Positions 31,021 through 62,485 of a stretch of 64,000 bases of DNA are shown here, in pieces; within the stretch, counting starts at the first letter, position 1, and each line of letters starts with the position of its first letter. The translations under genes were made by a program, and so were the position numbers. The notes beneath the pieces are model-generated. The model saw only the letters and a program-made list of their open reading frames with translations, did no database searches and was not told the origin of the DNA. The DNA is from Nematopogon swammerdamellus (lineage: Eukaryota > Arthropoda > Insecta > Lepidoptera > Adelidae). The stretch covers positions 22,155,791-22,219,790 of the forward strand of contig OX336344.1 of the NCBI GenBank assembly GCA_946902875.1, written 5' to 3'.

Positions 31021-31347
31021 ACTGGCTGCGTTGCTCCTCTGAATTTCGAGGCTAATATAATAACTAACAATGCACTTAAAATAATACGAATTTAAAAATA
31101 GAATAATTTTATTCATTGTATGAAATGCGACTTACCTACCAGACAATGCTGAACAAGGATACCGCATACGTTACTCCATTTTGTTCCTAAATAACTTTGA
31201 AGCGTGTGGCAGTTAATTTTATTTTCTGACCGAGGTTGTTTGCTAAATAATTTGTTTCGCGTAGAGAGTTCCCAGCTGACTCCGTGCGGCGTTATTGAGG
31301 GCAGAGGAGAGAGATAATAACATACCTACAGTTTCCACTTATTTTTT
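31021..31347. other. No gene seen
   Basis: Unassigned. Confidence 0.3.
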
Positions 31348-31757
31348 AGGGTTCCGTATCCGGTATGGGACCCTATTACTAAGCCTACGCCGCCGTCTGT
31401 CTGTCCGTCCGTCCGTCCGTCCTTCCGTCCGTCCGAGGGCTGTATCTCTTGATACGTAATAGATAGCCCGTTGAAATTTTCACAGAATATGTGTTATTAT
31501 TTATTAACTTATTATGGCCGATATAACAACAAAGAATAAATAAAAAATTCATGGGGGTTTCCATAGAAGAAACCAAAAAGCGTATGCGCGCGCGCCATCT
31601 ACCGAATAGAGTACGAAGCATTTTAACTAATCATGAATTTTAACTAATATGAAGCATTTCATAACACTACTTAGATGGCGTGAGTGGAGCTAACCATGAC
31701 ATAGAGATACGGCACCCTCGGTGCGCGAGTTCGAATCGCACTTGGCCGTTTTTTTTC
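31348..31757 (+). mobile_element. Family C, full length
   Basis: AGGGTTCCGTATCCGG start, CTGTCTGTCCGTCCGTCCG, CACAGAATATGTGTTATTAT, GCGCGCGCGCCATCTACCGA and GATACGGCACCCTCGGTGCG, then CACTTGGCCGTTTTTTTT. Confidence 0.8.
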
Positions 31758-38919: not shown

Positions 38920-39065
38920 ATGGTACGCAAGCTGACAATCCTGGCGGTGGTGCTGGTGGTGGCTGCGCTGGCCGAGGGCAGAGCCTTCCAGGAGGAGGCG
39001 CAGGACGACCCTTACCAGATGCTGGAGCAACTCGAGAAGTTCTACTCGCAGGCCGGCAGACCGAG
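38920..39065 (+). CDS. NPF: NPF exon 1: signal peptide and first RPR core
   Basis: ATG at 38920 opens MVRKLTILAVVLVVAALAEG, a short basic start followed by a hydrophobic core: a clear signal peptide with cleavage near A-L-A/E-G or E-G/R-A. The mature part follows (AFQEEAQDD, then PYQMLEQLEKFYSQAGRPR). L-x-x-L-x-x-F-Y and the final RPR are NPF hallmarks. The exon ends with AG of a split Arg codon at a strong donor (GAG/GTAAGT). The core here is about 30 residues, a little short of the usual 36. GC-rich codon use stands out from the AT-rich surroundings. The start has AAAG before the ATG, an acceptable context, and no upstream in-frame ATG fits. Confidence 0.9.
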
Positions 39066-42000
39066 GTAAGTTATACCGATTCACTTGCCAATTGACAAGC
39101 TTACCAATTGACTTGCCAACTGACAAGCTTTCCAATTGACTTGCCAACTGACAAGCTTACCAATTGATTTGCCAACTGACAAGCTTACCAATTGACTTAC
39201 GAACTGACAAGCTTACCAATTGACTTGCCAACTGACAAGCTTACCAATTGATTTGCCAACTGACAAGCTTACTAATTGACTTGCCAACTGACAAGCTTAC
39301 CAATTAACTTGCCATCTGAGAAGCTTACCAATTGACTTGCTATCTGACAAGCTTATCAATTGACTTGCCAACTGACAAGCTTACCAATTGACTTGCCACC
39401 TTACAAGCTTACCAATTGACTTGCCAGCTGACAAGCTTACAGTTGACTTGCCAACTGACAAGCTTACCAATTGACTTGCCAACTGATAAGCTTACCAATT
39501 GACCTGCCAACTGACAAGCTTACCAATTGACCTGCCATCTGACAAGCTTACCAATTGACTTGCCAACTGACAAGCTTACCAATTGACTTGCCAACTGACA
39601 AGCATGCCAATTGACTTGCCAACTGACAAGCATGCCAACTGACTTGCCAATTCATAAGCTACAAGTACATGCGTAAAATAGTTTTCAAAATGTATTGAAC
39701 ATGTGACATTTACTTTTCATAGAACTATAAACGCGCAAGTACAAACTTTACTGCAAGGCAAAGTCAGCTCGGACGTCCAAAAGCCTCCCCGAAAATGAAA
39801 ATATAGTAATGCTGTAGCATCATCGTGCCAAAGTCACGAGACTACTCAATATCTAAACAACTATCTAAGAACTTTCTTTTTCGGCTTTTTGCGTTACATT
39901 TTACTCTGTTCGCTGTTAATTTTTCTCTACGAGTATTTATATATTATTTTCAAAATAACATTAGAAGTAACATTTTGTAATATTTTGCCAGCCTCGACAG
40001 CTCAGCGGTGCAGACAGACGACTGTTGCTATTGATTGTTAAAAGCAACGCTGGGCGCGGTCAGTACTTGGATGGGTGACCGCTCGACCGTTGGAGGCTGA
40101 CCGCGGTTCGGATACCACGTAAAACTGTAGGCCCCTTCCCTTCCTACCTTACTCGGTGGTAGGGTTCAACCCAACCGGATTGGTACCACCGCACTGAATG
40201 AAACGTCGGTCGAAACGGCTATGTAAATAGTTTGTGTTTTCCGTCCAGTTCAGTGTAGATCGATCGATCGAAGGGAAACACTGACATGGCACCTAGTTAA
40301 CCCGGTGTTATGGGCTGACATCAGGGATGTTGTAGGTGATGTAGCCAACCGTGCCAGTTTCCATAAAAAACAATTAACTAACAATACAAGAAACATAATA
40401 AAGCTATAAAAAAAATTATAAAATAAAATATAATAATGAAAATCTTCCATCGTGTTCCCCCGGTGGCATTGTCCCCATGATGGATGCCGCCTTCCCCTCG
40501 TCATCACTTGCTGGCAATTGGATATATGGCGAGAAGGTAAGAAGGGAAAGGATCAAGTTTTACGTGTAATACGAACCACGGTCAGCCTCCAACAACGGTT
40601 GGTCAGTTCGACTGTTGGAGGCTTCAAAATTGTCGTTCTGCTATGCTTTACTTTCGCAAATAAAGTTTAAAAAAGCCAGCGTACGGTTCCCACAATAGAC
40701 GTCATGACTCCCAGGGCGCTTCGCAGGAAGAACCTCGTTAAATTCCAAAATTACTGGCCCGGGAACCGTGATTTTCGAACTGCAGTCGATTATTGCTCGT
40801 AAATAGACCTAGGCTACGGGACTGCAACAAGAAGCGCTAGAGGTGTGCTAATTTGAAATGTTTCACCAATCGATACTTGGAATCGTCTAAACATTGTAGG
40901 TACCGATATATTATATTCGATTCACTGACGTGATATTAAAAAATATCGTATACGCATATATTAATTTAGTGGTGAGTTAATGATCAGGTCAATTAATGGT
41001 CAGCAAGTCTGTCATTCAGTCGGGATCAATAAGAATAAAGCTTGCGCTACAAATTAGGTATTTATTCATTTTCAGTACTTGTCAGCCTCGATAGCTCAGT
41101 GGTGCAGACAGTCAATTGTCGCTATTGAATGTTAAGCAACGCTGGGTGCGGTCAGTACTTGGATGGGTGACCGCTGACCGTTGGAGGCTGACCGAGGTTC
41201 GGATTCCTCGTAAAACTGTAGGTCCCTTCCCTCCTAATCTTACTTGGTGGTAGGGTTTAACCCGCCCGGGTTGGTACCACCGCACTGAATGAAACGTCGG
41301 TCCAAACGGCTATGTAAATAGTTTGTGTTTTCCGACCAGTTCAGTGTAGCCGGCACGATCAAAGGGGGAAGCACTGACATGGCACCTAGTTCACCCGGTG
41401 TTATGGGCTGACATCACGGACGTTGTAGGTGATGTAGCCAACCGTGTCAGGTTCCATAAAAAAAAAAATAACTTTTTAAAAATGGAAGCTGACGCCAGCC
41501 CATTTCCACCTAGTTGCTGTACCTGCCCCAACCTGTCAGTTTGTCCGCCACTACGTCAAAATTTAAATCAATCCAAATGAAAAATTAAATCATAATAGTG
41601 TTTATTATTCAGGCTCAGTTTAAAAATAAAAATGCATGACGCATCATGACCAATTTTTCGTATCTAAGGATGTACACTGTAGCCGCGAGAACGAACATTT
41701 TAATACAGAACGCCGTAAATTATAATGGAAAAAATATTATTTTCAATCGATGACAAGCATGAGAGTGACGTTTATCAATTGCCAGAAAGTCGTCGGAGTT
41801 CGGTCTAAAATTTTAATGATGAATGAAAGAAATTCAATCGCATTCCAAAATAAAAATAACTGGATTTATACAATCGATTGAATAATTTTTCGAATGCGTA
41901 CATCACTAGCTGCCCAGGCCTTGCGTCCACTACAATAGTCGTGTAGCCGTGACGGAAGGGAGCGGGCAGTAATTTTGAAGCAACTTTGAACATTCACAGA

Positions 42001-42428
42001 CTCTTGTACAGACGAACCGAAAGGTTGTTGTTTGAAACTTGTTACATTCACTAGTGCCTTTTGGGGGCCACCCGTTGCCCTTTAGCACGACCTCTCGTCC
42101 GGTCACATTTTTTTTTTCAAAGTAAAAATATATAAATTTTACCGCATTTTAAATATTTTCAGGTAATGAAAAATACCAAATTTTAAAGAAAACATATTTT
42201 TTATAGCGTTAACGGGTGTTTTTTTTTCCTTGGAACATCAAAAGAATATTTTGTGAAAGACCTACGTCCACATACGAGCCACGACATAACGTAATATGAT
42301 CTGTCACTTATGTAATAGTAATTTTAAACAGGGTTATGCGGCTGGACCAAATCTCGTGTTGTTAAAATGCTCACAAGTATTTTTAGGGTTCCGTATCCGA
42401 TACGGGACCCTTATTACTAAGCCTAGGC

Positions 42429-42476
<48 letters not shown>

Positions 42477-45400
42477 CGTCCGTCCGTCTGTCCGAGGACT
42501 GTATCTCTGGAACCGTAACAGGTAGCCCGTTGAAATTTTCACAGAAAATGTATTATTATGGTCGATATAACAACAAATAATAAAAAAATAAGAAAAAGTA
42601 AAAAAATGGGGTTTCCCATAGAAGAAACAAAAAAGTGTATGCGCGCGCGCCATCTACCGAATAGATTATGAAGCATTTTGACTAATCATGACATTTAACT
42701 AATATGAAGCATTTCATAACACGCCATCTAGATGTCGTGAGTGGCGCTAGCCGTAACATGGCGATACGGAACCCTCGGTGCGCGAGTTCGACTCGCACTT
42801 GGCCGGTTATTGTGAAAGCGTTCACCAAAATGCACAAAAATATAAAATTAAATAAAATAGAAATCTTATATTTTCGTTAACTTGAATTTGACATTCACGT
42901 ACCATCACGCTATTTCTTATAGGGCCGCAGTAGTATGGTCGAACGTAATCGTAATTTGAGAAAATAAAGTGCACCTACGAAATTGTATATAATTCAAACC
43001 ATAATCTAGCTCTTTCATTATTCCACTGTTAAACATCTACCTTCCGAAACATGTTTATTTCGTTGAATATGTAATACATAGATTTTTCTAAACTGGCATT
43101 GTCCAACAATAATGGGGTTCAGGAAGAAGGAAGAAATCAAGCTAAATACATTAAAAATTGTTTTATTGAAATCACGACATATGGCTCCGAGCCATCCATA
43201 AGGTGTCTAACGACGCCCATGGACATTCGGTCGTATACGGTTGCGTATGCCATGCCGGCCTGACAAGTGCCAATTCACGCCCCTATTGAAGGATCCGAGA
43301 CTGTACTTGGGCGGAAATATATGAGCAGGGAGAGCGTTCCAGAGTTTACCGGTTCTGTAGAGGAAAGATCTGGAGAATCGATTGGTTCGCATCCGCGGTA
43401 AGTCCAGCATGTAGGGATGTTATCCCTGCCCAGTGCGCGTGGTACGGAGATGGAAAGGGGATGGCGGGATCGCATTAAACAGCTCCTCCGAGCACTCCCC
43501 ATGGAATAAGCGATAGATGCTATGTGTGTATCTATGTAGGGGCGTACGAATGACGCCGTGTCGTCGCGGCTACTTCGACAGGTTTTTAGAATGGCCACGA
43601 TACAATTAATTGTTATATGGATACTGACACAGTTGTCAACATCACCTACAACATCCGGGATGTCAGCCCATAACACCTTGGTGAACTAGGTGTCATGTCA
43701 GTGCTTCCCTTCATTTCATGTCGGCTACACTGAACTGGACGGAAGACATGAACTATTTACATCTTAGCCATTTTGACCGAGACGTTACGGTGGTATCAAC
43801 CGGGCGGGATGAACCCTACCACCTAGTAATGTAAGAAGGGAAGGGACCTACAGTTTTACGTGGAATCCGAACCACGCTCAGCCTCCGAGACGGTCGAGCG
43901 GTCACCCATCCAAGTACTGACCGCGCCCAGGTGTGCTTAACAGCAGTCGACCGACCGCACCACTGAACTACCGAGGCTGACATACTTATTATCTCCGTGT
44001 TTCGAAACTAATTTATACGATAAGTAAAATTTGCCACTTCAGTGTTCACCTACCAATTCGTTGTTGAATTAAAGGATTATGAACTTTGTTCCACCCCAAA
44101 CTGTTATGATTAGATAAGGAATTTAATAAAAATCACTAATCGTTTGGAACATTGAGAAATCTTTGCCTAAGTACCAGACCGTGTATGTGTGACAGTACTT
44201 GAGTGGATACAAATTACGTATCAAAATCTTACAAAGACTTTTTACACCCGATACACTTAATTAACAAGTCTTTGTAGTCAGAACTCTCAGCAAAATTATT
44301 AATCTTGCTCTCAAGGTGTGTTTTCGATAAACCGTAAGCGATGTTATTATGTGGATGGATAGGTTAATAAAATACTTCTAATAATATTGATGAAAAAAAA
44401 AAACACTACTTTGCGAAGTTTCTTGCCGTTTCTTCTTCGTGGGTGTAGTCGAACTGTATAGAACAAAGTGACAAGTTCGAGCGCAGTCTTACTGCCTTAC
44501 GAATGCTCAATACAATAAACAACAGGTGTAGCTGTTTACTAGTTTAATCGCAACAGGACAATCCTCGTAATAATTTCAGAAAAAAAAGTGGTCAAAAAAT
44601 TAACCATGTCCACGTGCCGAGGGTCCCATAACCGCTGCTACGATTTCATCTAATTATATTTTTTATTGGGGGGGTGCGGTCAGGCTTTGAATGTGTGACC
44701 GTACGACAGCGTTGAAGTTGGCAGTGATTCGGATTCCTGTTTCCTGGTCCCTTTTTTCGAATTTTGCGACGGGACCCTAATTATCTAAAGTGTCTAGTTT
44801 CCGAGGTATTAATTTTGAAAGTGTCCGCTTTCGCCCAATATAAAGAACGTGCCGCGGGGAAGCGCATTTTTTTATGTAATGCGATATGGGTGGCTGAGTC
44901 GGAAGGGCCAAAGCGCATGCTCCGATCAGCCAATATCACCACCGAGAATGTAGGTGCCATACCGGAGACTTCCCTGCATTGCTGGCTATACTGGACCGAG
45001 GCTGCTATGCGGCCATCTTGCATCCAGTACGGTGGTACCAACCCAGTCGGCTACAATTTGAGCCTACCACCTAGTAAGGGGCAAGGGAAGGGACCTACAG
45101 TTTTACACCGGTTCCGAACGGTGAAACAGCAGGTGTAGTATGCACGTAATTTTTTTCGTTAGAAAAAACTCATTGGTACACGCCGACCGGATTTGAACCG
45201 CGGACCTCTCGCATGAGAAGCCGATGCCGAAACCACTCGGCCACCCGCCGCATGACACCGAGCGGCACACTGCGTATGACGGCGAGCGACGCTCACTGTT
45301 CGTTCGCGTCCAAGTAGATCACTTGAACGCGCGGTTGGTCGCACGCAAAATGAGCGCGCAACAAGGTGCACCTGCACTTCGACATGTTTCTTGTATGGGA

Positions 45401-51400: not shown

Positions 51401-54400
51401 AAGCCGTAGCTGAAAGTATCTATGTATGGTATTTAAGTATTAAGGCAGTGTGTGCCTGCGCGCCGGCCGCCAAATCCGCCAATCGCGTAATCGCGTTGCG
51501 GCGTTCGCGTCGCGTCGCGTGCGCGCGGTCGGTCGGTTTGTCTGTCTAACAACTTTCGGTTGGGCCGAAAGTGACCACTACTTTCGGCCGAAACCGTAAG
51601 TTTGCCGAATGTTGCAAATATTGGCCGAAAGGCCGAAAGCCGAAAGCCGAAACCGAATATTCGGTCGGACACTAGTCGTACGTAAGTAGTAATATAGCCC
51701 AGAAATGAGTATATCGATATCGATATCGATATATCATTCTGACTAACCGCGAGAGTATTAAATGAAAGAGTTGATTATATCGATATATCACACTGACTAA
51801 CCTCGAGAGTATTAAATGAACGAGTTGATTATATCGATATCGATATATCACACTGACTAACCCGAGAGTATTCAATGAAAGGGTTGATTATATCGATATA
51901 TCACACTGACTAACCCCGAGAGTATTCAATGAAAGAGTTGATTATATCGATATCGATATCGGCAGGGTGGGGCGGCGAGGCGAGGTCCCCCGCATGGACC
52001 CGGAGGTTATGCGCAACACACTACAGCTGTTGCAGCTTCGCACGATCACAGACCTCTACAAGTCGCGACCAAGGTAGGCGGACGTCGCATTGTACATAAT
52101 ATGGGATTAGGGTTCCGTATCCGGCACGGGACCCTATTACTGAGCCTACGCCGTCTGTCTGTCTGTCCGTTCGTCTGTCTTTCCGTCCGTCCGTCCGTCT
52201 GTCCGAGGGCTGTATCTCTTGAACCGTAATAGGTAGCCCGTTGACATTTTCACAGAATATGTGTTATTATGTCTGATATAACAATATAAAAGTAAGAAAA
52301 AGTAACAAATTCACGGGGTTCCCATAGAATAAACCAAAAAGTGTATGCGCGCGCGCCATCTACCGAATAGATTATTAAGCATTTTAACTAATCATGACTA
52401 ATATGAAGCATTTCATAACACGCCATGTAGATGGCGTGAGTTGCGCTAGCCATGACATGGCGATACGGAACCCTCGGTGCGGGAGTTCGACTTGCACTTG
52501 TTTAACATTATACATACATGCATACCACACGCCGTATCCCGAGAATCGGGGTAAGCAGAGTAATTAGTGTTGTGCCGCAAGTACTCTTGTAAATTACAGC
52601 ACAACACCGACCACCACGTTCAGCAAAGTATTAGGACAAGATAACTATCAAGCAGCAACAAGGCCGGAAGACACCTGCTACACGACTCGGTGGAATGACC
52701 GTCCCAAAGTGAGAAGTGGCCAGCCTGTCGCCCTCTAGCACGGCACCTTGTCCTTATCCCTTAGTCGCCTTTTACGACATGCACGGGGAGAGATGCAGTG
52801 GGGCTATTCTTTTTAATTACCGGCCCCACACGGTATAATTTTCTGTATAGTATACTTACTTATATATCATTTTCTGATATCTCTCCTCCTATGTTTCTAA
52901 GGCTAAAATTTTGATTTTAATAGAGTTAGTTGATATTAAGCGATGCGTTACAGGAAAACTGCAGGTATTTTCGACAATGTAATAGTTGCGGCAAAAAAAG
53001 TATTTTTTATGTTTTAAATACAAGAAGCAATGGATTGCCTGACAGTCCAACTATTGCTGTAGATTTTTTAGGCGTTTCATTATTTTCGAAAACACTATTG
53101 TTTTGGTAAACACACAAATATATTGTGTGGTGGTACGGAACCCTCGGTGCGCGAGTGCGACGCGCACTTGGCGGATTTTTTTAGATTTATTGAGCTTTAT
53201 GTTCTGGAATAATTACATCGTAATGTAAGCTTCGAAATATCTTTCAATCGATGTACATATCGAACTGTTAAATGTTCTTTTATTTACAACTTTGCGGCCC
53301 ATGTTAATAAAAGTTGAGGACGATAAAAATCTATAAACACTCCAAATTCTAAGAAAAATAGCTCAAAGCTACAGGCTGTGATAGTCAGACGAACGGACAG
53401 ACGGACTGACACATGACTGGTATAAGCGCCCCTGCCTGCATCGCTGGCTAAGGAATGCTACAAAAACGGTATGAGCACTCATAAAAAAACAAATAGTGAT
53501 GTGAGAATTAAAAATTAAAAATATCGATAAATTTATAAAGTATCGATATCGACAGGATCGACCGCCGCGGAGTACCCGAGGACACGCGGGCGGACTCCGA
53601 GCGATTTGAGAATGCGCTTCGGCTGTTGCAGCTTTCGACCATAGATCGCTATTTGCTTCAGCGCCCGAGGTACGACAGCACTGTCTATCGATGTCGTAAT
53701 ACCTTGAGTGAGTGCCGAAACGAATACGCAATATGGTGCTGCATGCAGGCGAGGTCGTATTTTGCATGTTACATATAGGCGAATTCAATAATTACTACCA
53801 ACATTTTAAGGGCTAATTCAATAGGTCAAACTAACGACTTTGACTTTTGAATTTTTTTTCAAAATTTCTAAGAAATGTTCATGATCTCCATATATTTTTC
53901 TAATTTACTGCAACAAAAATGTATGGATCACGATAGTTTTAATAGTTTTTGAACCAAATTATAAATACTAAAATTGTTCATTAATTTGAGCTCAAGAACA
54001 TCGCCTAAAATTTTGGTATTGATTGCTGACTAATTCTGTAAGGGTTTTTAATACAGTCAGTGCTACCGTCGCTAATATTTTCAAAAAATTAAACTGTTTT
54101 ACTCACGCTGCTGGTTTTCCGAGCGATGTAACTCGATGTTTCAGGCCGAAAGTGTGTCCCATCACTATAGACAGAGTTGATTCTGGCGTCAGAAGTGCTC
54201 ATGAGGATGGATAGGCGACACGTTTGGCTTGAAACGTGAAGCCACATAGCTCGTTAAATGACCATGATTAAAAACGCAAATGTTTTAACACTGCAATTTG
54301 CACGTTAGGTACATGTTTGAAACACAAATAATAATTTAATTTTATAATTTACTATTTGAAAATTTCGTTAACAAAAAAATTTTAAATACCTAAAATATTC

Positions 54401-57400
54401 TAAAAACTTCACCTACTAGATATTAAGTACCTATATTATTTTATAAATAACTGACTATGATTTTTTAAGTAATATATTTCTAAATTATAAACGTGTTTTG
54501 TGATTTTTTGCAAAATTCACATTTTGCAACTTACCAACTCGTACGATTATTAAAAACCAATTAATATTTTAACCTTCATAACTTAGCCACATAGTCTACA
54601 AACTTTCAAAGTTGTGATTTCAGTAACTTCTTAAGAGAGTTGAAACCTGCTAAAATTTACACCTCGAAATTGCGTTAAATATATTTCTTGTAAAAACCGA
54701 CTTTGAAAATAAAATCACTCAAATTTTTAAATAGATGTTTCTTGGTTATTGTTATGAGAAGGTTTGTAAATTTTAATTGCGCTTGGCATGATTGAAGATA
54801 ACGTTTTGAAATTAAAGCAACTTTGCAGATATGGAAACTTCGGGTAATTATTTTTGATTATAAACTCTGAGATACACATACTCTTTATACAGAATGATTG
54901 ATAATTTTCCTTGATATTAAACTAGGATACTATGAGGTGGGGGTCCGAAGCGCACCGAGGGTTCAGTACCAATCACCACACGACACGATATATTTTTTGT
55001 GTTATGTGTTTACCAAAATATAAGTATTTTCTAAAATAACGAAACGCCTAAATAAAAACTACAGCAATGGTTTGACTGTTAGGCAAACCATTGCTTCTTG
55101 TATTTAAAATATAAAAAATACTTTTTTTTTTAGCTTTATTAGGACCACTGAACTTAAAATTGTAAAAAAAAATATTTTTAGAATCCTTACAGTTAGCTCT
55201 TTCAAATTATCATTCACACGATGTGTTTTTTTTAATGATACGCGAGACACTTTGCGCCGTCAGCATGGATTGTTGAGCCGACGACGCCCAAAAGCATTCA
55301 TTTTAGAACGGGAGCTGCGAATGCCGTGCCGGCGTGACAGATGCCTTTTTATGCGTCTCTTAAAAGATCCTAAGTCATACATAGAAGGAAACACATCGGG
55401 AGGAAGTGCATTCCAGAGTTTCGCAGTGCGGAAGATGAAAGAAATACTGGAGCGCTTAGTCCGCACTTTAGGCAGCTCTACAGTATAGGGATGCATTCCC
55501 TGTCTGTTACGCGTGGACCTATGGTGAAATGGTGAAGCCGGAATCGTTTCGAACAGCTCCTCAGAGCATTTACCGTTGAACAGTCGATAGAACACACTTA
55601 GTGACCCTATGTCTCTACGGAGCTGCAAGGGTTCAAGTTTGCAGGAAACTTTAATTTAAACTTTTTTTTATAGATACCAAACCAACCCCCCATATTAATA
55701 ATCTAAATTATTTTTTTCTAGCTCATGAGCGATATGTGTGCTCGTCATCAAGATCTATCATTCGGCCAAATTTCCACTTCTCACTTAGTTTTCGAGAAAA
55801 ACCTCTGACAGACGGACAGACACGGGAGTTGACGGGAGTGATAAGTTGAAAGCGACACCCTTTGTCTTCTAACTTAACAGATTTTTAGGTTTCCGCACCC
55901 CGTACGGAAGTCTATTACTAAGTCTGTCTGTCTGTCTGTTCCTCCGGCCGTTCGTCCGATGACTGTATCTTTGGAACCGTCATTTTGGCGGATACAACAA
56001 GAAATATTAAAAACATGAAAAACATGAAAAAGGAAAATGAAGGGGGTCCCCATACAAGAAATAAAGTTTTTTTTTTCAAAGTGTTTTCTGTGGTATGGTA
56101 ACCTCGGTGCGCGAGTCCGTCTCGCACTTGGCCGGTTTTTCTATAGTGATTCAGGACCATTGGCTGGCCCATACAGAATATTAAAGGACGACTGGTCCTT
56201 GGAGAGCAGCCTAGGCTCGTTGGGATCAGAAAAGTTAATTTGAATTTTCTTCTACGGTGATAATTTTTTCATTGTATAAATTTTAAAACAGGAAAATTTA
56301 ACATAATCTCTGTTTCTGTTGTCGGCAGGTACGGGAAGCGCTCCGATGCTTTCTCGAGCTGGATCAAGAACTCCGGAGACGTAAGTGAGAGCAATATTTA
56401 GCGTTGTAAAAGTGAATGAAACTTTGGAACTGACCTATATTTAAATTATAAATCCACGTAATTAATCTGCGCACGATATACAGACAAAATATATGAACGA
56501 ATTTTTGCAAGGTGATCGAGTAAAATTATCATATTTAAATTATTATTTCAATTTTTTTTCTCGTTCGATAAATCATACATATATAAGTACGTACCATGTT
56601 ACAATAAATAAAAAAAAAATAGAAAGAAAATTGAAAAAGAATAACGCAACATTTTTTTTATTTTGAATCTCAATGCTTTTTTTTATGGAAACTCAATGCT
56701 TTTTTTTATGTCAGCCCATAACACCGGCTTAACTAGGTGCCATGTCAGTGCTTCCTTTCATTTCATGTCGGCTACACTGAACTGGACGGAAAACATGAAC
56801 TATTTATATAGCCGTTTCGACCGACGTTTCATTCAGTGCGGTGGTACCAACCCGACCGGGATGAACCCTATCACCTAGTAAGCTAAGAAGGGAAGGGACC
56901 TACAGTTTAACGTGGAATCCGAATCACGGTCAGCCTCCAACGATCAAGCGGTCACCCATCAAAGTACTGACCGCCCTCAGGGTTGCTTAACAACAGTCGA
57001 CCGACCGCACCACTGAGCTACCGAGGCTGCCAAGGTAGGTTGGAACTCGACAATTTATACTAGAGGCACTGCGGGCACTGTTTGTTGTGTGTCGAAAAAA
57101 TATATCTTATTAACATTTTTCAAAATATTTTTTCCCCGCCCTCGTTAACTGTATCATTCGAAATTAAATCTTTTGATAAAATAATGAGATTAAATAATCT
57201 TACTAATAAGCGAGATTGAGCATCATCAAAGGCATTTTCCGAGTAATACCTGTCTAATTGTCGACACTGTTGACTTTGTCCTTAACAAAGTCTGTTAATT
57301 TTCCAAAAAAAAAAAATAATAATAAATAAAAGTACGGGACCAATTTCTCTATGAAATCTAAAATGTCAGCTCTATTATAAAATATTGTTTACCTAATTAA

Positions 57401-60400
57401 GGCCCTGTCAACCCGTATTCACTCGTACTCCTCTTTCAAGGCGCGCCGCTTTCGCTGGTTGGAGTAGGCAATCAATCAAACATTAGGTTTTTATTTTTTT
57501 ATTCCAAAACTACGGATCGAAACAAAAAAGTGAAAAGCTACTGATTTAGATATATATTCAACAAATAAAATAGTTTTTTTCCAAAGCCTTGATTTGGTCA
57601 TGTTGCCTTAAATACGTTTTTATAACTAAATTCAGAGGCATGTTCATGATTTTTTTCTATCGAGCGAAGTTAATCAAATCGTGTTTTCAAAAAGCTATCG
57701 ATCTGCACTAATAAATGAAGTACATATTACATATATTAAAACTGAATCTGTCAGGTGAGTAATAAAGGTGGTAAACTTCTTGAAATTCGAGTCAGACGCA
57801 GCCTCACGTCCTGCTAAGCTACCTACACTACAGTCAGCGTGTACGCGTCCATTGCTTGACATACGCCTCCAAGTTTCCTCCAGTTCTTCCCTTGCCCCTT
57901 ACTAGGTGGTAGGCTCAAATTGTGGCCGACTAGGTTGGTACCGCCGCCGTACTGGATGTAAGATGGCCGCATTGTTGTGTTCTCCTGTAGTCCAGTATAG
58001 CCAGCAATCTAGAGGAAGGCTCCGGCATGGCACCTATGCCTTCTCGGAGGTGATATTGGCTGGTTGGAGCATGTGCATTTGGCCCCTCTAAGACTCAGTG
58101 TCAGCTGTCCATACCGGATTAAATAAAATAAAACATTTAAAGTGCATGTCAGATGGATCAACCAGTGAGCTAATATGGCTGACTGAACGAACAGTTCCTT
58201 GATGTAAAAGGCTCAGTTCACCGCCCTACATGAAAAGTTGTATACGACACCTAGAAAAAAGATAATAAGGGTCGGTAATACCCTTTTTGGTACTGATCTT
58301 TAAAAAATCTTTATATAAAAAGTGATAATAATAGCAAGATCAACTGCATATTTTTACAACCACGAGATTTCAGCTACAACAATTTTGATTACTTATATTT
58401 TTTTTAGTTATAGTTTTTATATTTTCAAAGATTTTCTGCGGCAAGGTGGACTGACAAGAGCGCCCCGTGATGCAATGAAAATGCATGGAACTCAAATGTT
58501 ATTTTCATCTATTTTGAACGCTGAAATCATTGAGATTATTGTGAAATTTTCGGTTTGAGTTCCATCGAATAATATATAAGAAAAAAAATATTGCATGTAT
58601 GTATATCGCTTATTCCATGGGGAATGCTCGGAGGAGCTATTTAACGCGATCCCGCCGTCCTCTTTCCACCTCCGCACAACGCGCACTGGGCAGGGATTGC
58701 ATTTCTATACCCTGGACTTACAACAGATGCGTACCAATCGTTCTGCAGATCTTTACTCCACAGAACTGGTAAACTCTGGAACGCTCTCCCTGCCCACATA
58801 TTTCCCCCCAAGTATAGTGTCGGGTCCTTCAAGAGAGGCATGAATAGGCACCTGTCAGGCCGGCATGGCATTCGCAGCCCCCGCGTACAACCCAATGTCC
58901 ATGGACACCTTAGTTAGACAACTTATATCGGTGGCTCGGCGCCACATGTCGCGCTAAATATAGAAAAACATCCTTAGTTTCAATAGTTTCATTAGTTTCA
59001 TTCATGTCATTCGTTTCGTTCGTTTCATTAGTTTCACTAGTTACATTCGTTTCATTAGTTTCATTCCTTTCATTAGTTTCATTCGTTTCATTAGTTTCAT
59101 TAGTTTCATTATTTTCACTAGTTTCATTAGTTTCATTTCTTTCATTAGTTTCATTCGTTTCATTAGTTTCATTCGTTTCATTAGTTTCATTAGTTTCATT
59201 TCTTTCATTAGTTTCATTCGTTTCATTAATTTCATTCGTTTCATTAGTTTCATTAGTTTCATTTCTTTCATTAGTTTCATTCGTTTCACTTCTTTCATTA
59301 GTTTCATTCAATTCTTTCATTTCATTTCATTATATTTCAAAGAGCGCTCTTGAGGTGACCCACCTTACCGCAAAAAAATTGAGAAAACTAAAAAACTGTC
59401 AATAAAAATTTATAATAACCATTTTTGTAGCTTAATAGCTAAGGAATCGCGTTGTGACAATATTACGCGATTGATCTGCGACACCTGTATAGAAAAACCA
59501 TTCGAAACGTTATTATATCAATCTAAAAAACGCCCATCACTGAATTTGAATACAGGCCTACCCACGAACATATTTTCTTGCATACCCGCGTATCTCATAT
59601 CGACACTACAAAGTCGCCCGTGCCGATATTAAAATTGAATATGCAATGGGGCAATATCTAAAGGGATATGGCTATCTCGGGTTCTTGCCGAGATAGCCAT
59701 CGAATTGCTATTGGCTTGACGGACGCTAAGCTCGAAGATTGACGTGGGATCCGCGATCGTATTCTGCAACTTTGTGCGATATCAACGCGTAAGTATGACG
59801 TTAATTAAAATAGTGTCCGCGTTGGGCGGTTTTATCGAGATTTGTAGTGATTTTTAACTTTTAACCGACTCTGTGAAGCAAAAAGGAGGATAATGTTTTT
59901 TAGGGTCTGGTACGGGACCCTATTACTAAGCCTACGCCGCCGTCTGTCTGTCCGTCTATCTGTCCGAGGGCTGTATCTCTTGAACCGTAATAGGTAGCCC
60001 GTTGAAATTTTCACAGAATATGTGTTATTATGGCCGATGTAACGACAAATAATAAAAATAAGAAAAAGTAAAAAAAATCACGGGGGTTCCCATAGAAGAA
60101 ACCAAAAAGTGTATGCGCGCGCGCCACATACCGAATAGAGTGTGAAGCATTTTAACTAATATATAACATTTAATTAATATGAAGCATTTCATAATACGCC
60201 ATAGATGGCGTGAGTGGCGCTAACCATGACATGGCGATACGGAACCCTCGGTACGCGAGTTCGACTCGCACTTGGCCGGTTTTTTTTTATTTAACATGAC
60301 ACGGTTGGCTACGTCACCTACTACACCCACGATGTCAGCCCATAACGCCGTTTGGTGAAATAGGTGCCGTGTCAGTGCTTTCCTTTGGTCGCGGCGGCCA

Positions 60401-62485
60401 CACTGAACTGGATAGAAAAAAAACGAATTAGTTACATATAGCCGCTATATTAGTTCGTCATTGCCGTCCAATTCAGTGTAGTTGTCATAGAATAGAATGG
60501 AATAGAATGGAATAGAATAGAAAATATACTTTAATGCTTTCATATATTAATTTGACAAAAGGTGGACCTAATACCTAAGAAAATTTCTGCCAGTGAAACT
60601 GTATTTTTTTTATAATCATAAATATAAAAATAGGGTAGCAACAAAGTAGTGAAGAATGAAACAAACTTAATACTAATGAAAGTTTATTAATAAACGGTAT
60701 GACTAAAAAAAAATAATAAATGGAAGCACTGACATGGCACTTAGTTCACCAAGGTGTGATTGGCTGACACCACAGGTAGTAGGTGATGTCGGCAACCATG
60801 CCAGTTCCCATAAATAAAGGAGCATCGATTGAGCCGTTTTTGAGTTAAAAGCAAATAGACAGACAGACCTCGGGCCTTATCTAGAAATAGAGGAGGTGGT
60901 TTATTTCTATCACATAAAAAATAAAAATAATATAAAAACAATTCTTCATTTTATACGTCACGTTAGGGTCTCAGTAAAAAAATACTTTATAGGATGAGGC
61001 GCGCGAGGCCTTCACATTTATTTTCAAGTGTCGACGTGTATGTACGTAAAAGGTTGGAGATTTACGTAAAGTCGTTAAATACGTCATATTTTGGAGGATA
61101 ATAAGGTTTTGTGATTTTACATTTATTAAAATGGCAAAGAATACTTTGTCAATACTAATAATAAATCTGAAGGGATGGCCATGGAGTAAGTTACTTTGTT
61201 TTATTGAGATATTGCGTTTGTAGGCTCTATATATGATACTAAAACTAAATTGACGATTTTTATAAATATTTTTTGTATGTCTGTATGTTCCTCCATAACT
61301 CTTAAACCGATCATCCGAATTCGATGAAACTTAGTAGTTAGTACCAACAAGCACATTTAGCTAATGAAATTCGTTTTCGGTTATGCTAAGATGTGGCTCT
61401 CATACAAACCGAATTGATCCGCACGCTGAAATAAAGGTACGGTAACGGGCTTACTTACTTTCTTCTTATTTAAATACGAATTTCACGCGAGCGAAGCCGC
61501 GGGCAAAAGCTATTTTAAATAAAATACCTACTTAAAAATAATTAAATCTACACCTAAAAATACTAAATTAACTATAAAAATAAATTTAGGTAACTCTATA
61601 TAACAATAATTGTCCATAGGGACGATTATTGATACAAGAAACAAATAATTAAATTTAATAGCCAGTTATTGTGAGCGAAATTACTTTCATCCTTTTAAAT
61701 ATGTACTACCTGAGAATGTAAATGACACAATTTTAGAGAGAGTTTAATATTGTGACGAATTCTCACAAATTAATTCCAGAGGCATTTATTAAATTGGAAA
61801 TGTAGATTACAAATAATTTCGCCCCTCCAGATCCTGTAAGACGGCTATCGCCAGGGCTAAATTTGAACACATCGGCAGAATCGGCGATAGACTGAACCGT
61901 CATCCAACTGGGAGCCGCGAGTTCTGGTCTCTCGCCAATTGGTGACTCTGTACTCACAAAGGACCTTCAAACTCTAAAGCACAGACGTATCGTTGGGTCA
62001 TTGAGCCTATTTTATCGGTACTACTATGGCCGCTGCTCTGACGAACTTGCTTCCCTTATCCATCCTCGTCCTGTTCGCCTTCGCCAAACCCACCATACTC
62101 TCGCGGAACACCCTTTTGTAGTCGACAGAAGAGTTCTTCGAACTGCACGATTCTCTAAATCGTTTTTGTGCCGCACTGCAAAGGTGTAGAACGGGTTCCC
62201 GGGGAATATCTTTCCCTGCTCCTACAATCCACGGATCTTTAAATCGCGGGTTAATAGCCTTTCCCCAGTGACATTAGTCCACCTCCAAGCCGGACTGGCA
62301 CGTCCTCGGCGGTGAAATTGGCTGCGCCTGTGAATGGGCTGACATCACGGATGTTGTAGGTGATGTAGCCAACCGTATCAGTTTCCATAAAAAAAAGGTT
62401 ACACCCGAACTGATGAAAATATATTTTGTTCCAGAACATCCCGGACGACGCGCCCTCCTGGCTGACGTACTCCCGAAGAAGATGA
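38920..62485 (+). CDS. NPF: Neuropeptide F precursor gene (all coding exons)
   Basis: Secreted, amidated NPY-family neuropeptide precursor. NPF acts through a G-protein-coupled receptor on feeding, growth and reproduction in insects. The coding exons I support are 38920-39065, 51966-52073 (optional), 53556-53669 (optional), 56329-56380 and 62435-62485. All have GT..AG borders, and all junctions before 56329 are phase 2. The minimal message encodes 82 residues: signal peptide, a core ending RPR+Y, G (amide donor), KR (cleavage) and a C-terminal tail ending in RRR. Adding the first, second or both optional exons gives 118, 120 or 156 residues. In lepidopterans one extra exon distinguishes NPF1b from NPF1a; here there are two. 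The introns are full of transposons, which explains the 23.5-kb span. Assignment to NPF1 is by memory of the RPRY/F-GKR pattern. Confidence 0.88.
39083..39658 (+). repeat. 28-bp minisatellite just after the exon 1 donor
   Basis: About 20 copies of a 28-bp unit ACTTGCCAACTGACAAGCTT + ACCAATTG, beginning 17 bases inside intron 1. Each unit carries a CAATTG palindrome and most carry AAGCTT. Frames through it are repeat translations. Confidence 0.95.
39659..39987. other. Intronic, nothing recognised
   Basis: Unassigned AT-rich intron sequence. Confidence 0.3.
39988..40372 (+). mobile_element. SINE-A, full length
   Basis: CCAGCCTCGACAGCTCAGCG, GCAACGCTGGGCGCGGTCAG, CTTGGATGGGTGACCG and GGTTCGGATACCACG (B box), with the body ending TTCCATAAAAAACAA. 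A GATCGATCGATCG oddity at 40258 replaces the usual GCCGGCACGACC. Confidence 0.85.
40528..40625 (-). mobile_element. SINE-A fragment, reverse
   Basis: TTACGTGTAATACGAACCAC and GGTCAGCCTCCAACAACGGT. Confidence 0.5.
40626..41078. other. Intronic, nothing recognised
   Basis: No gene or clear repeat. Confidence 0.3.
41079..41470 (+). mobile_element. SINE-A, full length, young subfamily
   Basis: Head nearly identical to 19217 (GATAGCTCAGTGGTGCAGAC, GCAACGCTGGGTGCGGTCAG, GGTTCGGATTCCTCG), with a complete body and an A-rich end. Confidence 0.85.
41471..42383. other. Intronic, nothing recognised
   Basis: Frames at 41805-42051 (-) are short and unrecognised. Confidence 0.3.
42385..42810 (+). mobile_element. 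Family C, full length
   Basis: AGGGTTCCGTATC at 42385 and GATACGGAACCCT at 42763 are exact inverted repeats. CTGTC/CCGTC tract at 42430-42495; tail CTCGCACTTGGCCGGTTAT. Confidence 0.85.
42811..43199. other. Intronic, nothing recognised
   Basis: Unassigned. Confidence 0.3.
43200..43525 (-). mobile_element. LINE 3' coding end, reverse
   Basis: The reverse strand encodes MRTNRFSRSFLYRTGKLWNA and IFPPKYSLGSFNRGVNWHL. Upstream, in another frame, SMGSARRSCLMRSRHPLSIS shows a frameshift. The tail matches 58603-58965. Confidence 0.75.
43627..43982 (-). mobile_element. SINE-A, full length, reverse
   Basis: From CATCACCTACAACATCCGGG back to CACTGAACTACCGAGGCTG, with the complements of the 5S-like and B-box blocks. 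Confidence 0.85.
44225..44545 (+). repeat. Repeat Q, copy 2
   Basis: Shares AGTCTTTGTAGTCAGAACTC, GATGTTATTATGTGGATG, TTTCTTGCCGTTTCTTCTTC and CAGTCTTACTGCCTTACGAA with 18863-19165. Confidence 0.6.
44846..45250 (-). mobile_element. SINE-J, near full length, reverse
   Basis: The reverse strand starts GTGGCCGAGTGGTTTCGGCA (A box), then CTTCTCATGCGAGAGG and GGTTCAAATCCGG (B box). It continues through the core shared with SINE-A (TGTAGGTCCCTTCCCTTGCC, TTACTAGGTGGTAGG, GGTTGGTACCACCGTACTGG) to CATTACATAAAAAAATGCGC. Confidence 0.8.
45251..45550. other. Intronic, nothing recognised
   Basis: CATAGACATAGACATAGACA microsatellite near 45495. Confidence 0.35.
45551..45640 (+). mobile_element. Solitary end of the 4900 foldback family
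   Basis: TATTATCAGCGATAGGAAAA, CATATTTACCTAAATTTGAG and GGGAAGACAC parallel the left end at 4905-4985. Confidence 0.55.
45645..45945 (-). mobile_element. LINE 3' coding end with AATAAA
   Basis: The reverse strand encodes WVKGQIQKAALLDTARIVRR and FLSLGPDHR, then a stop: the final residues of a non-LTR ORF. A short 3' UTR follows, containing TAATAAAGATGTGACAAG. Confidence 0.6.
47503..47700 (+). repeat. Three tandem family C-like units
   Basis: GTAGGGTTCCGTAACACGTT with CTGTCCATTCTACTAAGTTC, repeated at 47503, 47560 and 47648. The reverse-strand frame here is repeat translation. Confidence 0.65.
47695..48041 (-). mobile_element. SINE-A, full length, reverse
   Basis: CATCACCTACAACGTCCGTG to GAGCTATCGAAGCTGACG; young-subfamily head (compare 41079). 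Confidence 0.85.
48172..48530. repeat. Near-perfect palindrome, ~140-bp arms
   Basis: AACGAACCCTAGAGTTGAAG mirrors CTTCAACTCTAGGGTTCGTT after allowing one mismatch. CCGCCTTCAAAAATATATGA mirrors TCATATATTTTTGAAGGCGG. AACCGACTTCC mirrors GGAAGTCGGTT. The loop is about 80 bases. Confidence 0.85.
49075..49345 (+). repeat. Repeat K, copy 2
   Basis: TGTGTGTGTAGGTGTGC, TGTCTGTCTGTGGCATCA, GATGGACCGATTTGGATGTG and AGCTTGAAATAAAAGTTAAA; matches 12025-12320. Confidence 0.65.
49366..49654 (-). mobile_element. Family D repeat, reverse copy
   Basis: GTATGTATGTATGTTCCTCT, TAACTCTTAAACTGATCATC, ACCGAATTGTTCCGCGCGCC and GCGAGCGAAGCCGCGGGC. Confidence 0.75.
49857..51153 (-). mobile_element. mariner element, 1297 bp, inactive
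   Basis: TA flanks both ends (49855-49856, 51154-51155). The ends CGAGGGTGGACC and GGATCTACCTCG are imperfect inverted repeats. The length is typical for mariner. The transposase lies on the reverse strand (next entry). Confidence 0.85.
50010..50980 (-). pseudogene. mariner transposase, frameshifted, catalytic D lost
   Basis: The reverse strand starts near 50980-50970 with MEKIEHRALMKYLHKKGMS and continues through the HTH region (SYSSVKKWVAEFKRG, DDPRSGRLSTST) and the second HTH (LTINNIAEITGISYGRVQTI). The catalytic block then reads VTMNESWVHQHTPES where the family has T-M-D-E: an AAT codon replaces the first metal-binding Asp. A frameshift between FVDYV and LPKGETINSKYY (near 50330) leads to KRPGLLPKKVLFHQDNA, which keeps the second Asp. 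The C-terminal third is degenerate, with stops. A further break lies near 50555. It cannot be active. It sits in NPF intron 1, antisense to the gene. Confidence 0.88.
51289..51674. mobile_element. 386-bp hAT MITE full of CCGAAAG motifs
   Basis: Target GTCGTACG is duplicated at 51281-51288 and 51675-51682. The ends TAGTGTCCGACCGAA and TTCGGTCGGACACTA are perfect inverted repeats. Arms carry many CGAAAGCCGAAAG units in both senses. Confidence 0.9.
51713..51958 (+). repeat. Tandem repeat next to the NPF cassette exon
   Basis: Four copies of a 54-63-bp unit: ATATCGATATATCACACTGA, CTAACC.CGAGAGTATT and AATGAA.GAGTTGATT, varying by 6-bp ATATCG blocks. A fifth partial unit supplies the 3' splice site (ATATCGATATCGGCAG) of exon 51966. 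Each unit carries CTGACTAAC, an excellent branch-point match. Confidence 0.85.
51966..52073 (+). CDS. NPF: NPF cassette exon 2a
   Basis: 108 bases, phase 2 at both ends, so it can be included or skipped without changing frame. After completing the split Arg it reads VGRRGEVPRMDPEVMRN, then TLQLLQLRTITDLYKSRPR. GRR right after RPR-V supplies an amide donor and a dibasic site. A new peptide starts at G-E-V-P and ends KSRPR + Y from the common exon: 33 residues, close to the 36 usual for NPF, with an early Pro and an amphipathic L-x-L-L-x-L helix. Acceptor ATATCGGCAG/G, donor AAG/GTAGGC (moderate). Paralogous to exon 2b. Alternative: a decayed exon, but the open frame, phase and RPR end argue for function. 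Confidence 0.82.
52109..52500 (+). mobile_element. Family C, full length
   Basis: AGGGTTCCGTATC at 52109 and GATACGGAACCCT at 52462. It begins only 36 bases after cassette exon 2a. The usual GGCCGG tail is cut to CACTTG. Confidence 0.8.
52523..52836 (-). mobile_element. Family B repeat, reverse, near full length
   Basis: CCACACGCCGTATCCCGAGA, GTTGTGCCGCAAG, AAATTACAGCACAACACCG and TGCACGGGGAGAGATGCAGT to ACCGGCCCCACACGGTA. Confidence 0.75.
52837..53555. other. Intron between cassettes; family C 3' scrap
   Basis: 53133-53182 (GGTACGGAACCCTCGGTGCG, CGCGCACTTGGCGG) is a family C 3' end. The rest is unassigned AT-rich sequence. Confidence 0.4.
53556..53669 (+). CDS. NPF: NPF cassette exon 2b
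   Basis: 114 bases, phase 2 at both ends. After completing the split Arg it reads IDRRGVPEDTRADSE, then RFENALRLLQL, then STIDRYLLQRPR. RR at residues 3-4 gives a dibasic site (no Gly before it, so the upstream peptide would end non-amidated in RPR-I-D). The released peptide G-V-P to RPR + Y is 35 residues. It is the best match to canonical NPF here: A-L-x-L-L-x-L then I-D-x-Y before RPR-Y. Acceptor ATATCGACAG/G, donor GAG/GTACGA (weak). It shares the I/V-x-R-R-G start, the LLQL helix, the T-I motif and the 3' splice-site sequence with exon 2a, so the two arose by duplication. A reverse-strand frame overlapping it is chance. Confidence 0.82.
53670..55254. other. Intron, nothing recognised
   Basis: AT-rich. 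54946-54975 (GCGCACCGAGGGTTCAGTAC) is a scrap of reverse family C. No further RPR-ending cassette exon was found here by eye. Confidence 0.4.
55255..55640 (-). mobile_element. LINE 3' coding end, reverse
   Basis: The reverse strand encodes LQLRRDIGSLSVFYRLFNGK, CSEELFETIPASPFHHRSTR, SSISFIFRTAKLWNALPPDV and MYDLGSFKRRIKRHL in one open frame of about 120 codons: the C-terminus of a non-LTR ORF, better preserved than its relatives. Confidence 0.75.
55886..56140 (+). mobile_element. Family C, shortened
   Basis: AGGTTTCCGCACCCCGTACG start, CTGTCTGTCTGTCTG, and GGTAACCTCGGTGCGCGAGT with CTCGCACTTGGCCGG end. Confidence 0.7.
56329..56380 (+). CDS. NPF: NPF common exon: Y-GKR amidation and cleavage site
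   Basis: 52 bases. The first G completes Arg, then YGKRSDAFSSWIKNSGD. It supplies the last residue (Tyr) of whichever RPR core precedes it, Gly as amide donor and KR for convertase cleavage. The rest starts the C-terminal flanking peptide. Acceptor GTTGTCGGCAG/G after a T-rich tract (strong); donor GAC/GTAAGT (strong); phase 2 in, phase 0 out. It is required in every isoform. Confidence 0.9.
56381..56710. other. Intron, nothing recognised
   Basis: AT-rich; small duplicate TCAATGCTTTTTTTTATG at 56671 and 56692. Confidence 0.35.
56711..57032 (-). mobile_element. SINE-A, reverse, with head
   Basis: GTCAGCCCATAACACCGGCT to CACTGAGCTACCGAGGCTG; the far tail is missing. Confidence 0.8.
57033..57519. 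other. Intron, nothing recognised
   Basis: Unassigned; an A-rich run near 57306. Confidence 0.3.
57520..57870 (-). repeat. Dispersed repeat P, copy 2
   Basis: Reverse of 16600-17005 without the nested LINE tail: AAGCCTTGATTTGGTCATGT, AATTCAGAGGCATGTTCATG, CGTGTTTTCAAAAAGCTATC and AATTCGAGTCAGACGCAG. Confidence 0.7.
57895..58130 (+). mobile_element. SINE-J body, forward
   Basis: CCCCTTACTAGGTGGTAGGC, TTGGTACCGCCGCCGTACTG, CCAGTATAGCCAGCAATCTA and GGTGATATTGGCTGGTTGGA. It lacks the head. Confidence 0.7.
58131..58602. other. Intron, nothing recognised
   Basis: Unassigned. Confidence 0.3.
58603..58965 (+). mobile_element. LINE 3' coding end plus 3' UTR
   Basis: TCGCTTATTCCATGGGGAAT, CGTTCTGCAGATCTTTACTC and CCACATATTTCCCCCCAAGT (as at 556), then GTCCATGGACACCTTAGTTA and GGCGCCACATGTCGCGCTAA, the 3' tail also seen at 16695. 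Confidence 0.75.
58975..59335 (+). repeat. 9-bp minisatellite (TTTCATTAG)n
   Basis: About 38 copies of TTTCATTAG / TTTCATTCG directly after a LINE tail. Frames encode V-S-L/V-S-F or N-E-T triplets and are repeat translation. Confidence 0.9.
59336..59901. other. Intron; 13-bp perfect hairpin at 59668-59700
   Basis: ATGGCTATCTCGG, loop GTTCTTG, CCGAGATAGCCAT. Otherwise unassigned. Confidence 0.5.
59902..60290 (+). mobile_element. Family C, near full length
   Basis: AGGGTCTGGTACGGGACCC start (partly deleted), GATACGGAACCCTCGGTACG near the end, and CTCGCACTTGGCCGGTTTTT. Confidence 0.8.
60298..60488 (-). mobile_element. SINE-A tail, reverse, diverged
   Basis: ACACGGTTGGCTACGTCACC, GATGTCAGCCCATAACGCC and CACACTGAACTGGATAG. 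A stray GTCCAATTCAGTGTAG at 60465 is in the other sense. Confidence 0.6.
60720..60825 (+). mobile_element. SINE-A 3' portion, diverged
   Basis: GGAAGCACTGACATGGCACT to CAGTTCCCATAAATAAA. Confidence 0.65.
60826..61147. other. Intron, nothing recognised
   Basis: Unassigned AT-rich sequence. Confidence 0.3.
61148..61512 (-). mobile_element. Family D repeat, reverse copy
   Basis: AATACTAATAATAAATCTGA, GGAGTAAGTTACTTTGTTTT, CTCTTAAACCGATCATCCG and CACGCGAGCGAAGCCGCGGG. Confidence 0.75.
61800..62335 (+). mobile_element. LINE with RT domain deleted
   Basis: CKTAIARAKFEHIGRIGDRL and HPTGSREFWSLA (the linker between endonuclease and RT in non-LTR ORFs) run within about 100 bases into LFYRYYYGRCSDELASLIHP, FVVDRRVLRTARFSKSFLCR and TAKV (the C-terminus). 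The whole RT is missing. The 3' UTR matches 37105-37310. Confidence 0.7.
62336..62398 (+). mobile_element. SINE-A tail scrap
   Basis: GGGCTGACATCACGGATGTT to TTCCATAAAAAAAA, 36 bases before the last NPF exon. Confidence 0.75.
62435..62485 (+). CDS. NPF: NPF last exon: C-terminal flanking peptide and stop
   Basis: Acceptor TATTTTGTTCCAG/A has a good T-rich tract. It reads NIPDDAPSWLTYSRRR then TGA (62483-62485). Together with SDAFSSWIKNSGD of the previous exon it forms an acidic-then-basic tail with two S-W dipeptides, released after KR cleavage; its function is unknown. It enters in phase 0, consistent with the previous donor. Confidence 0.88.
   Translation, partial: NIPDDAPSWLTYSRRR

Follow-up and report, generated by a model that had tools for sequence, protein, structure and literature searches.

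A probable tandem duplication of the optional exon in an NPF1 gene of the moth Nematopogon swammerdamellus

Layout of the gene and its splice junctions

The window, i.e., the entire 64,000-nucleotide stretch of Nematopogon swammerdamellus DNA analyzed here, contains a neuropeptide gene of the NPF family whose coding exons we re-read and spliced by script, thereby confirming the gene structure set out in Table 1. Exon 1 opens with a hydrophobic N-terminus, MVRKLTILAVVLVVAALA (judged by eye), and its 3′ end reads ...AGA CCG AG/GTAAGT, whereas those of exons 2a and 2b read ...CGA CCA AG/GTAGGC and ...CGC CCG AG/GTACGA, respectively. Exon 3 begins with CAG/G TAC GGG AAG and ends at 56380 with GGAGAC/GTAAGT, the residue at its junction with exon 4 being D. 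An AG/G split codon is thus common to the ends of exons 1, 2a and 2b, which is the arrangement described in the accessible text on NPF genes, where a phase 2 intron lies in the last Arg codon. The optional sequence enters the ORF at nucleotide 146/147 of 249. In-frame alternatives to the tabulated acceptors occur at 51921 and 51936 for 2a and at 53541 for 2b; we prefer 51966 and 53556, the points from which the two exons can be aligned with each other. The exons have a GC content of 0.57-0.64 (GC3 of 0.71-0.85) versus 0.32-0.45 in their flanks.

Table 1. Exons and 3′ splice regions of the putative NPF1 gene, in window coordinates
Feature	Position	Strand	Description
Exon 1 (coding part)	38920-39065	+	Translation start and hydrophobic N-terminus, plus the NPF1a body (...FYSQAGRPR); last Arg codon split, AG/GT
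Candidate optional exon 2a	51966-52073	+	108 bp, phase 2-2, VGRRGEVPRMDPEVMRNTLQLLQLRTITDLYKSRPR
Candidate optional exon 2b	53556-53669	+	114 bp, phase 2-2, IDRRGVPEDTRADSERFENALRLLQLSTIDRYLLQRPR
Exon 3	56329-56380	+	Gives the C-terminal Tyr and the predicted G-KR amidation/cleavage signal to any preceding exon
Exon 4	62435-62485	+	C-terminal flanking peptide, then stop codon
3′ splice region of 2a	51951-51965	+	TATCGATATCGGCAG, closes a ~54-bp tandem array
3′ splice region of 2b	53541-53555	+	TATCGATATCGACAG, contains the 2a 11-mer, equally spaced from the acceptor

These junctions bear directly on a first-pass annotation of the locus. As it had stated, exons 1, 2a and 2b each end in RPR with a split AG, and the G-TAC-GGG-AAG exon that it took to be shared fits all three of these ends by sequence. 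Its claim that every combination keeps the frame was reproduced by the script: since 2a and 2b are both symmetric (phase 2-2), all four exon combinations are in frame, giving precursors of 82, 118, 120 and 156 residues, each with RPRYGKR, in line with the RxRF/Y C-terminus, then Gly and a dibasic site, that characterizes insect NPF1. The description of the three exons as interchangeable was wrong, in that exon 1, as the source of both the start codon and the hydrophobic N-terminus, is needed in every product, 2a and 2b being optional inserts. Likewise, the proposed total of up to three RPRY-amides holds for the gene as a whole; each precursor would yield only one, because the Tyr reaches only the exon that is joined to exon 3.

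Several repeats and mobile-element remnants accompany the gene. A 28-bp tandem repeat (39074-39650; ~21 copies, 92% matches) begins 8 bases past the exon 1 donor, and intron 1 also holds a mariner/Mos1-type transposase in two pieces (50122-51083, reverse strand; Pfam HTH_48 and Transposase_1). Pieces of a reverse transcriptase, probably of a LINE, lie at 7918-9511 on the reverse strand (Pfam RVT_1; one above and one below the cut-off). An interspersed element of ~400 bp, which we take to be a common lepidopteran repeat, begins ~30 bases after 2a (52107-52500) and recurs at 42383-42801, 31346-31744, 59906-60274 and elsewhere, the three named copies being 83-85% alike. Outside the window, the genome contains two gloverin matches above the cut-off, ~14 kb apart (C28:10476156-10490272), with none in 14 control genomes; one of the two has 3 in-frame stops, so that either a defective copy or an intervening intron is possible. 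Gloverins are a lepidopteran family, and these matches speak for a lepidopteran genome.

Relationship to known NPF genes and the likelihood of a chance origin

A search of the protein collection with the 156-residue precursor returned no match at E <=0.01 (73 candidates), and as this collection yielded no homologue, our comparisons rely on peptide sequences printed in papers (24 shuffle comparisons in all, P uncorrected). The exon 1 body, MLEQLEKFYSQAGRPR, scores 45 against two crustacean NPF1 peptides (0/5000 shuffles) and 30 and 31 against NPF2-class peptides (13/5000 and 0/5000, respectively); exon 1 thus appears to fit NPF1 better, although the NPF2 class matches too. The NPF1 body sequence resembles ...LQELDRYYSQVARPRF in the part of the source available (PMC7179676). 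In the three isoforms scanned with Pfam Hormone_3 (PF00159; 82, 118 and 120 residues), the domain stayed below its curated cut-off, with at best 20 bits versus 28.7 (E of 0.00073 for the 82-residue form, then 0.0073 and 0.05); we do not treat this score as defining an insect NPF, yet we count it as a miss.

With 36 codons in 2a and 38 in 2b, both in frame and ending in RPR, the two exons have the layout of the NPF1b optional exon, which measures about 38-40 codons and lies between the body exon and the Tyr/Phe exon. Exon 2a scores 47 and 39 against the inserts of two crustaceans, Euphausia and Macrobrachium (0/5000 shuffles each). Among 2882 six-frame pieces of the window, it is the top match (E 0.005) to a profile built from three crustacean inserts, and each of these inserts finds it in tblastn (E 0.024, 0.002 and 0.009). 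The corresponding values for 2b are scores of 36 and 27 (4/5000 shuffles for Euphausia and 103/5000 for Macrobrachium), rank 9 among the 18 pieces listed for the same profile (E 6.3) and a single tblastn match (E 0.13). These crustacean inserts suggest that 2a is probably the orthologue of the ancient NPF1b exon, and 2b, because of its own profile E of 6.3, counts as an exon of the NPF1b type via 2a, not alone. Neither 2a nor 2b, compared without the RPR, matches exon 1 beyond chance (P 0.21 and 0.75). The greater closeness of the crustacean exon to 2a in all three comparisons also speaks for an alternative in which one copy, likeliest 2a, works as the NPF1b exon, while 2b is an open relic that is no longer spliced in; we return to it with the splice sites below.

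A further alternative is that 2a and 2b are chance open frames or exons derived from transposons within a repeat-rich intron. Scanning both strands of the window for RPR/GT sites (codons for R and P plus a split AG, then GT), we recovered three on the forward strand, namely the ends of exons 1, 2a and 2b, with 147, 156 and 123 open bases upstream, and one on the reverse strand, preceded by 6 open bases and lacking an acceptor. In 60 first-order Markov sequences, such sites occurred at a mean of 0.53 per strand, and those preceded by 100 or more open bases with an acceptor in frame at a mean of 0.033 per strand (maximum 1). Genome-wide, the same pattern was uninformative (871 and 833 matches versus 997 and 975 in the reversed control). 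Repeats do abound in these introns, as tandem arrays, mariner-type transposase pieces and copies of the interspersed element, and the end of a tandem array coincides with the 2a acceptor. Against this, queries with exons 1, 2a and 2b, unlike repeats, each matched only themselves across the 699 Mb assembly (39 contigs), in a search coarse enough that the 2a query missed 2b and vice versa; moreover, 2a and 2b are homologous to each other and 2a is homologous to the crustacean inserts, with the correct phase, place and RPR end. Such an origin, strongly disfavored by the shuffle and neutral-placement tests, is in our view extremely improbable.

Probing the window by tblastn with five exon peptides and five published peptides, and with the crustacean-insert profile described above, did not reveal a credible fourth exon of this kind. 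One candidate on the reverse strand (57272-57231, tblastn E 0.85) was dropped, as it is without RPR in three frames and has a stop upstream.

Homology, age and constraint of exons 2a and 2b

The local alignment of 2a and 2b scores 64, whereas none of 2000 shuffles exceeds 47, and without the RPR end it still scores 59, a value reached by 0/5000 shuffles. Along with the frames, this homology supports the earlier view of one NPF gene with two paralogous optional exons. In the codon alignment, which covers 36 codons and leaves out 2 codons of 2b facing a gap, 58/108 bases and 18/36 residues agree, with identities of 22/36, 23/36 and 13/36 at codon positions 1, 2 and 3, respectively (positions 1 and 2 versus 3, Fisher p 0.014). 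The NG86 estimates are dN 0.57 and dS 1.47, for 36 codons only and with dS near saturation; over the last 26 codons they are 0.71 and 1.34, and the dN/dS of this part shows that constraint is looser there. When the 50 DNA differences were placed at random (n=20000), the mean number of shared residues was 9.5 and the maximum 17, the observed 18 being reached in 0/20000 placements; this test takes 2a and 2b as a pair, so that the duration of constraint on each copy is not separable. As 38% of the neutral placements were free of stops, the open frame of the two exons is weak evidence by itself. The shared residues and the distribution of changes over codon positions show that protein-level constraint acts on the pair.

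When both exons were compared by blastn together with 800 flanking bases at either end, the exon match ran from 15 bases before the acceptor into the first 73 bases of 2a, with 67% identity (E 0.03). Stronger matches come from 118 bases present in both stretches and from simple or interspersed repeats; the others are short pieces. The duplication is old, the adjoining introns being no longer alike, and a pair so old would be expected in related moths. From the closeness to crustacean inserts described above, 2a would be nearer the ancestral optional exon and 2b its diverged tandem copy.

An 11-mer, TATCGATATCG, stands at an equal offset before the 2a and 2b acceptors; of its 6 starts on the forward strand, 5 lie in 51712-51951 and 1 before 2b, and 3 more are on the reverse strand. 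The 2a and 2b acceptors are poor in pyrimidines (fractions of 0.47 and 0.41, respectively) next to those of exons 3 (0.71) and 4 (0.53), and the donors match the consensus at 8/9 (exon 1), 7/9 (2a), 6/9 (2b) and 7/9 (exon 3) positions. Weak sites of this sort would suit cassette exons that are often skipped, and equally exons that are decaying. Among the sites compared, those of 2b are the weakest as donor and the lowest in pyrimidines, which makes 2b the copy to which the second description might apply, and its open frame is uninformative in this respect, given the share of neutral placements without a stop. Nevertheless, 2b retains not only that frame but also the symmetric phase, the RPR end, both splice dinucleotides (GT and AG) and the RR site, together with a GC3 of 0.71 and a residue identity to 2a that neutral placement never attained; we accordingly hold it unlikely that 2b is a relic and only one copy is in use. 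The reading that we favor, and consider probable, is that of a lepidopteran NPF1 gene in which an ancient optional NPF1b exon was tandemly duplicated long ago, with both copies kept coding. Judging from their sequences, both 2a and 2b are likely used in mRNA, and the argument from frame suggests that the locus may be spliced combinatorially.

Mutually exclusive use of 2a and 2b could be enforced by spacing, frame or RNA pairing; the two exons are both in frame and 1482 bases apart, and local RNA folds at their acceptors were not significant (z -0.70 and -1.25). The ~54-bp tandem array (51723-51953) ends just upstream of the 2a acceptor, and its unit includes CTGAC/CTAAC, which resemble branch-point sequences, such that this acceptor may have several branch points. 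An inverted repeat (52993-53152 and 54950-55128) flanks exon 2b with a 1.8 kb loop that could favor skipping or circularization; we set it aside as a loop-out device, since 27% of the window is inside similar loops.

Predicted peptides, known systems and implications

Precursor cleavage was predicted by script at dibasic sites, with the start assumed after residue 18. Since the final Arg codon is interrupted by a phase-2 intron, any exon ending in RPR would receive Tyr-Gly-Lys-Arg from exon 3. Exon 1 would begin every precursor, and skipping of both 2a and 2b would give NPF1a, i.e., a 32-residue RPRY-amide from the 1-3-4 precursor. Inclusion of 2a is predicted to yield a 32-residue RPRV-amide and a 33-residue NPF1b, ...LYKSRPRY-amide; inclusion of 2b, a 33-residue RPRID peptide lacking an amide and a 35-residue third form, ...YLLQRPRY-amide; and inclusion of both, the RPRV-amide together with the 35-residue RPRY-amide and an RPRID peptide of 34 residues. 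A 27-residue flanking peptide would be released from every precursor. The RPRV-amide, overlooked in the first-pass annotation, would arise because the V-G-R-R that 2a supplies after the RPR of exon 1 forms a putative amidation and cleavage signal. Among the predicted amidated peptides are GEVPRMDPEVMRNTLQLLQLRTITDLYKSRPRY-amide, GVPEDTRADSERFENALRLLQLSTIDRYLLQRPRY-amide and ...FYSQAGRPRV-amide. A dibasic RR is present near the start of both 2a and 2b and would sever the exon 1 peptide, so that splicing would swap the amidated peptide instead of lengthening it. Cleavage, amidation and receptor action are all predictions from the encoded sequences.

If the 2a and 2b peptides folded like NPY, an amphipathic helix would be expected in them. 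Exon 1 shows one (P 0.006), and none was detected in 2a (P 0.59), in 2b (P 0.99) or in the Macrobrachium insert (P 0.97); therefore, the 2a and 2b peptides may be inactive or may have an action unlike that of NPF1a.

Two further proposals concern how the copies would be combined. In one, 2a and 2b form a fixed pair that is always included together, producing a single 156-residue precursor. The frame permits this, and the 1482-base intron between them is long enough for splicing, but 2a would then become ...RPRID-RR without an amide and its RPR end would be useless, making such a pair very doubtful. In the other, which we raise only tentatively and as less probable than not by a wide measure, the locus is a three-way switch: splicing would pick, tissue by tissue, which of three NPF1 peptides is amidated, and the choice of 2a would also turn NPF1a into the RPRV-amide, a ligand without a C-terminal aromatic residue that might serve as an antagonist or as a ligand of another receptor, giving a combinatorial locus with four amidated products.

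The favored reading, a duplicated optional exon, extends a familiar layout. An optional NPF1b exon is described in the accessible text of Veenstra (PMC4237046) for a termite, a locust, Bombyx, Daphnia and other insects, and in the termite, Bombyx and Daphnia it sits between the two others; the available part of another paper treats the longer NPF transcript as a basic trait of winged insects (PMC7179676). Thus, the extra exon is indeed known in moths, as the earlier annotation had it, but it is reported across winged insects and crustaceans and is not a moth trait. According to excerpts of the respective papers, the Ostrinia NPF has a 120-bp insert at nucleotide 153/154 of a 246-base ORF (predicted peptides of 30 and 37 residues), that of Helicoverpa a 120-bp insert at 135/136 (30 and 10 residues), Chilo has forms of 83 and 123 residues, 40 apart, and in the beetle Holotrichia a 114-bp second exon is optional (28 and 66 residues). 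The published cDNAs of Helicoverpa, Ostrinia and Chilo have a single insert each in these excerpts, which speaks against a pair as old as the one favored here. The insect NPF1a/NPF1b genes therefore share with the present gene the in-frame optional insert and differ from it in having one such exon where there are two paralogous ones here. The 37-residue insert form of Ostrinia, set beside the 33 and 35 residues predicted here, suggests a similar cut at RR in another moth, whereas the predictions for Helicoverpa (10) and Holotrichia (66) differ from this split, and a cut at RR is thus not general. Crustacean NPF-I/NPF-II (Macrobrachium, Euphausia and Lysmata) have a homologous insert, ...TLKFLQLQELGKLY...RPRF; as printed in the text available, these inserts are without a dibasic site near the start and the product is presented as one peptide of ~70 residues, whereas the RR would split the product here.

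Exon duplication combined with alternative splicing also produces paralogous hormones from one gene in beetle DH37/DH47 (PMC6585902), although, as far as the accessible text goes, that case involves another peptide family and a first exon that joins one of two later exons, in contrast to the internal cassettes before a shared exon seen here. Similarly, splicing varies the related peptides carried in lepidopteran allatotropin (PMC6381147, PMC6585902) and in the exon duplication of beetle sNPF (PMC6585902), where, in the portions available, the related peptides stand side by side in one precursor, whereas one RPRY-amide per transcript is predicted here. Further comparison literature, likewise available in part, comprises PMC4926255, PMC11121805, PMC5349583, PMC5067616, PMC11766081, PMC6389622, PMC13295887, PMC4449106, PMC3749230, PMC7212414 and PMC4244043.

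In the literature searched, which left most subscription papers outside its reach, we found no report of an NPF gene with two optional exons, and a search for named third or fourth forms (NPF1c, NPF1d) gave, in the text available, only a two-form description. One optional NPF exon is already known, and what is new here is the presence of two diverged copies; exon duplication with alternative splicing being known from beetle DH37/DH47 and sNPF, the finding is less of a surprise. NPF controls insect feeding. In two pest moths, feeding drops on knockdown of an alternatively spliced npf, according to excerpts of that work, and the accessible part of the Holotrichia paper regards it as unclear whether the two NPF isoforms differ in function. 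If both copies in N. swammerdamellus have been kept at the protein level, this would argue for a function of the peptide that the optional exon itself encodes, and a single receptor could be tried with three natural ligands.
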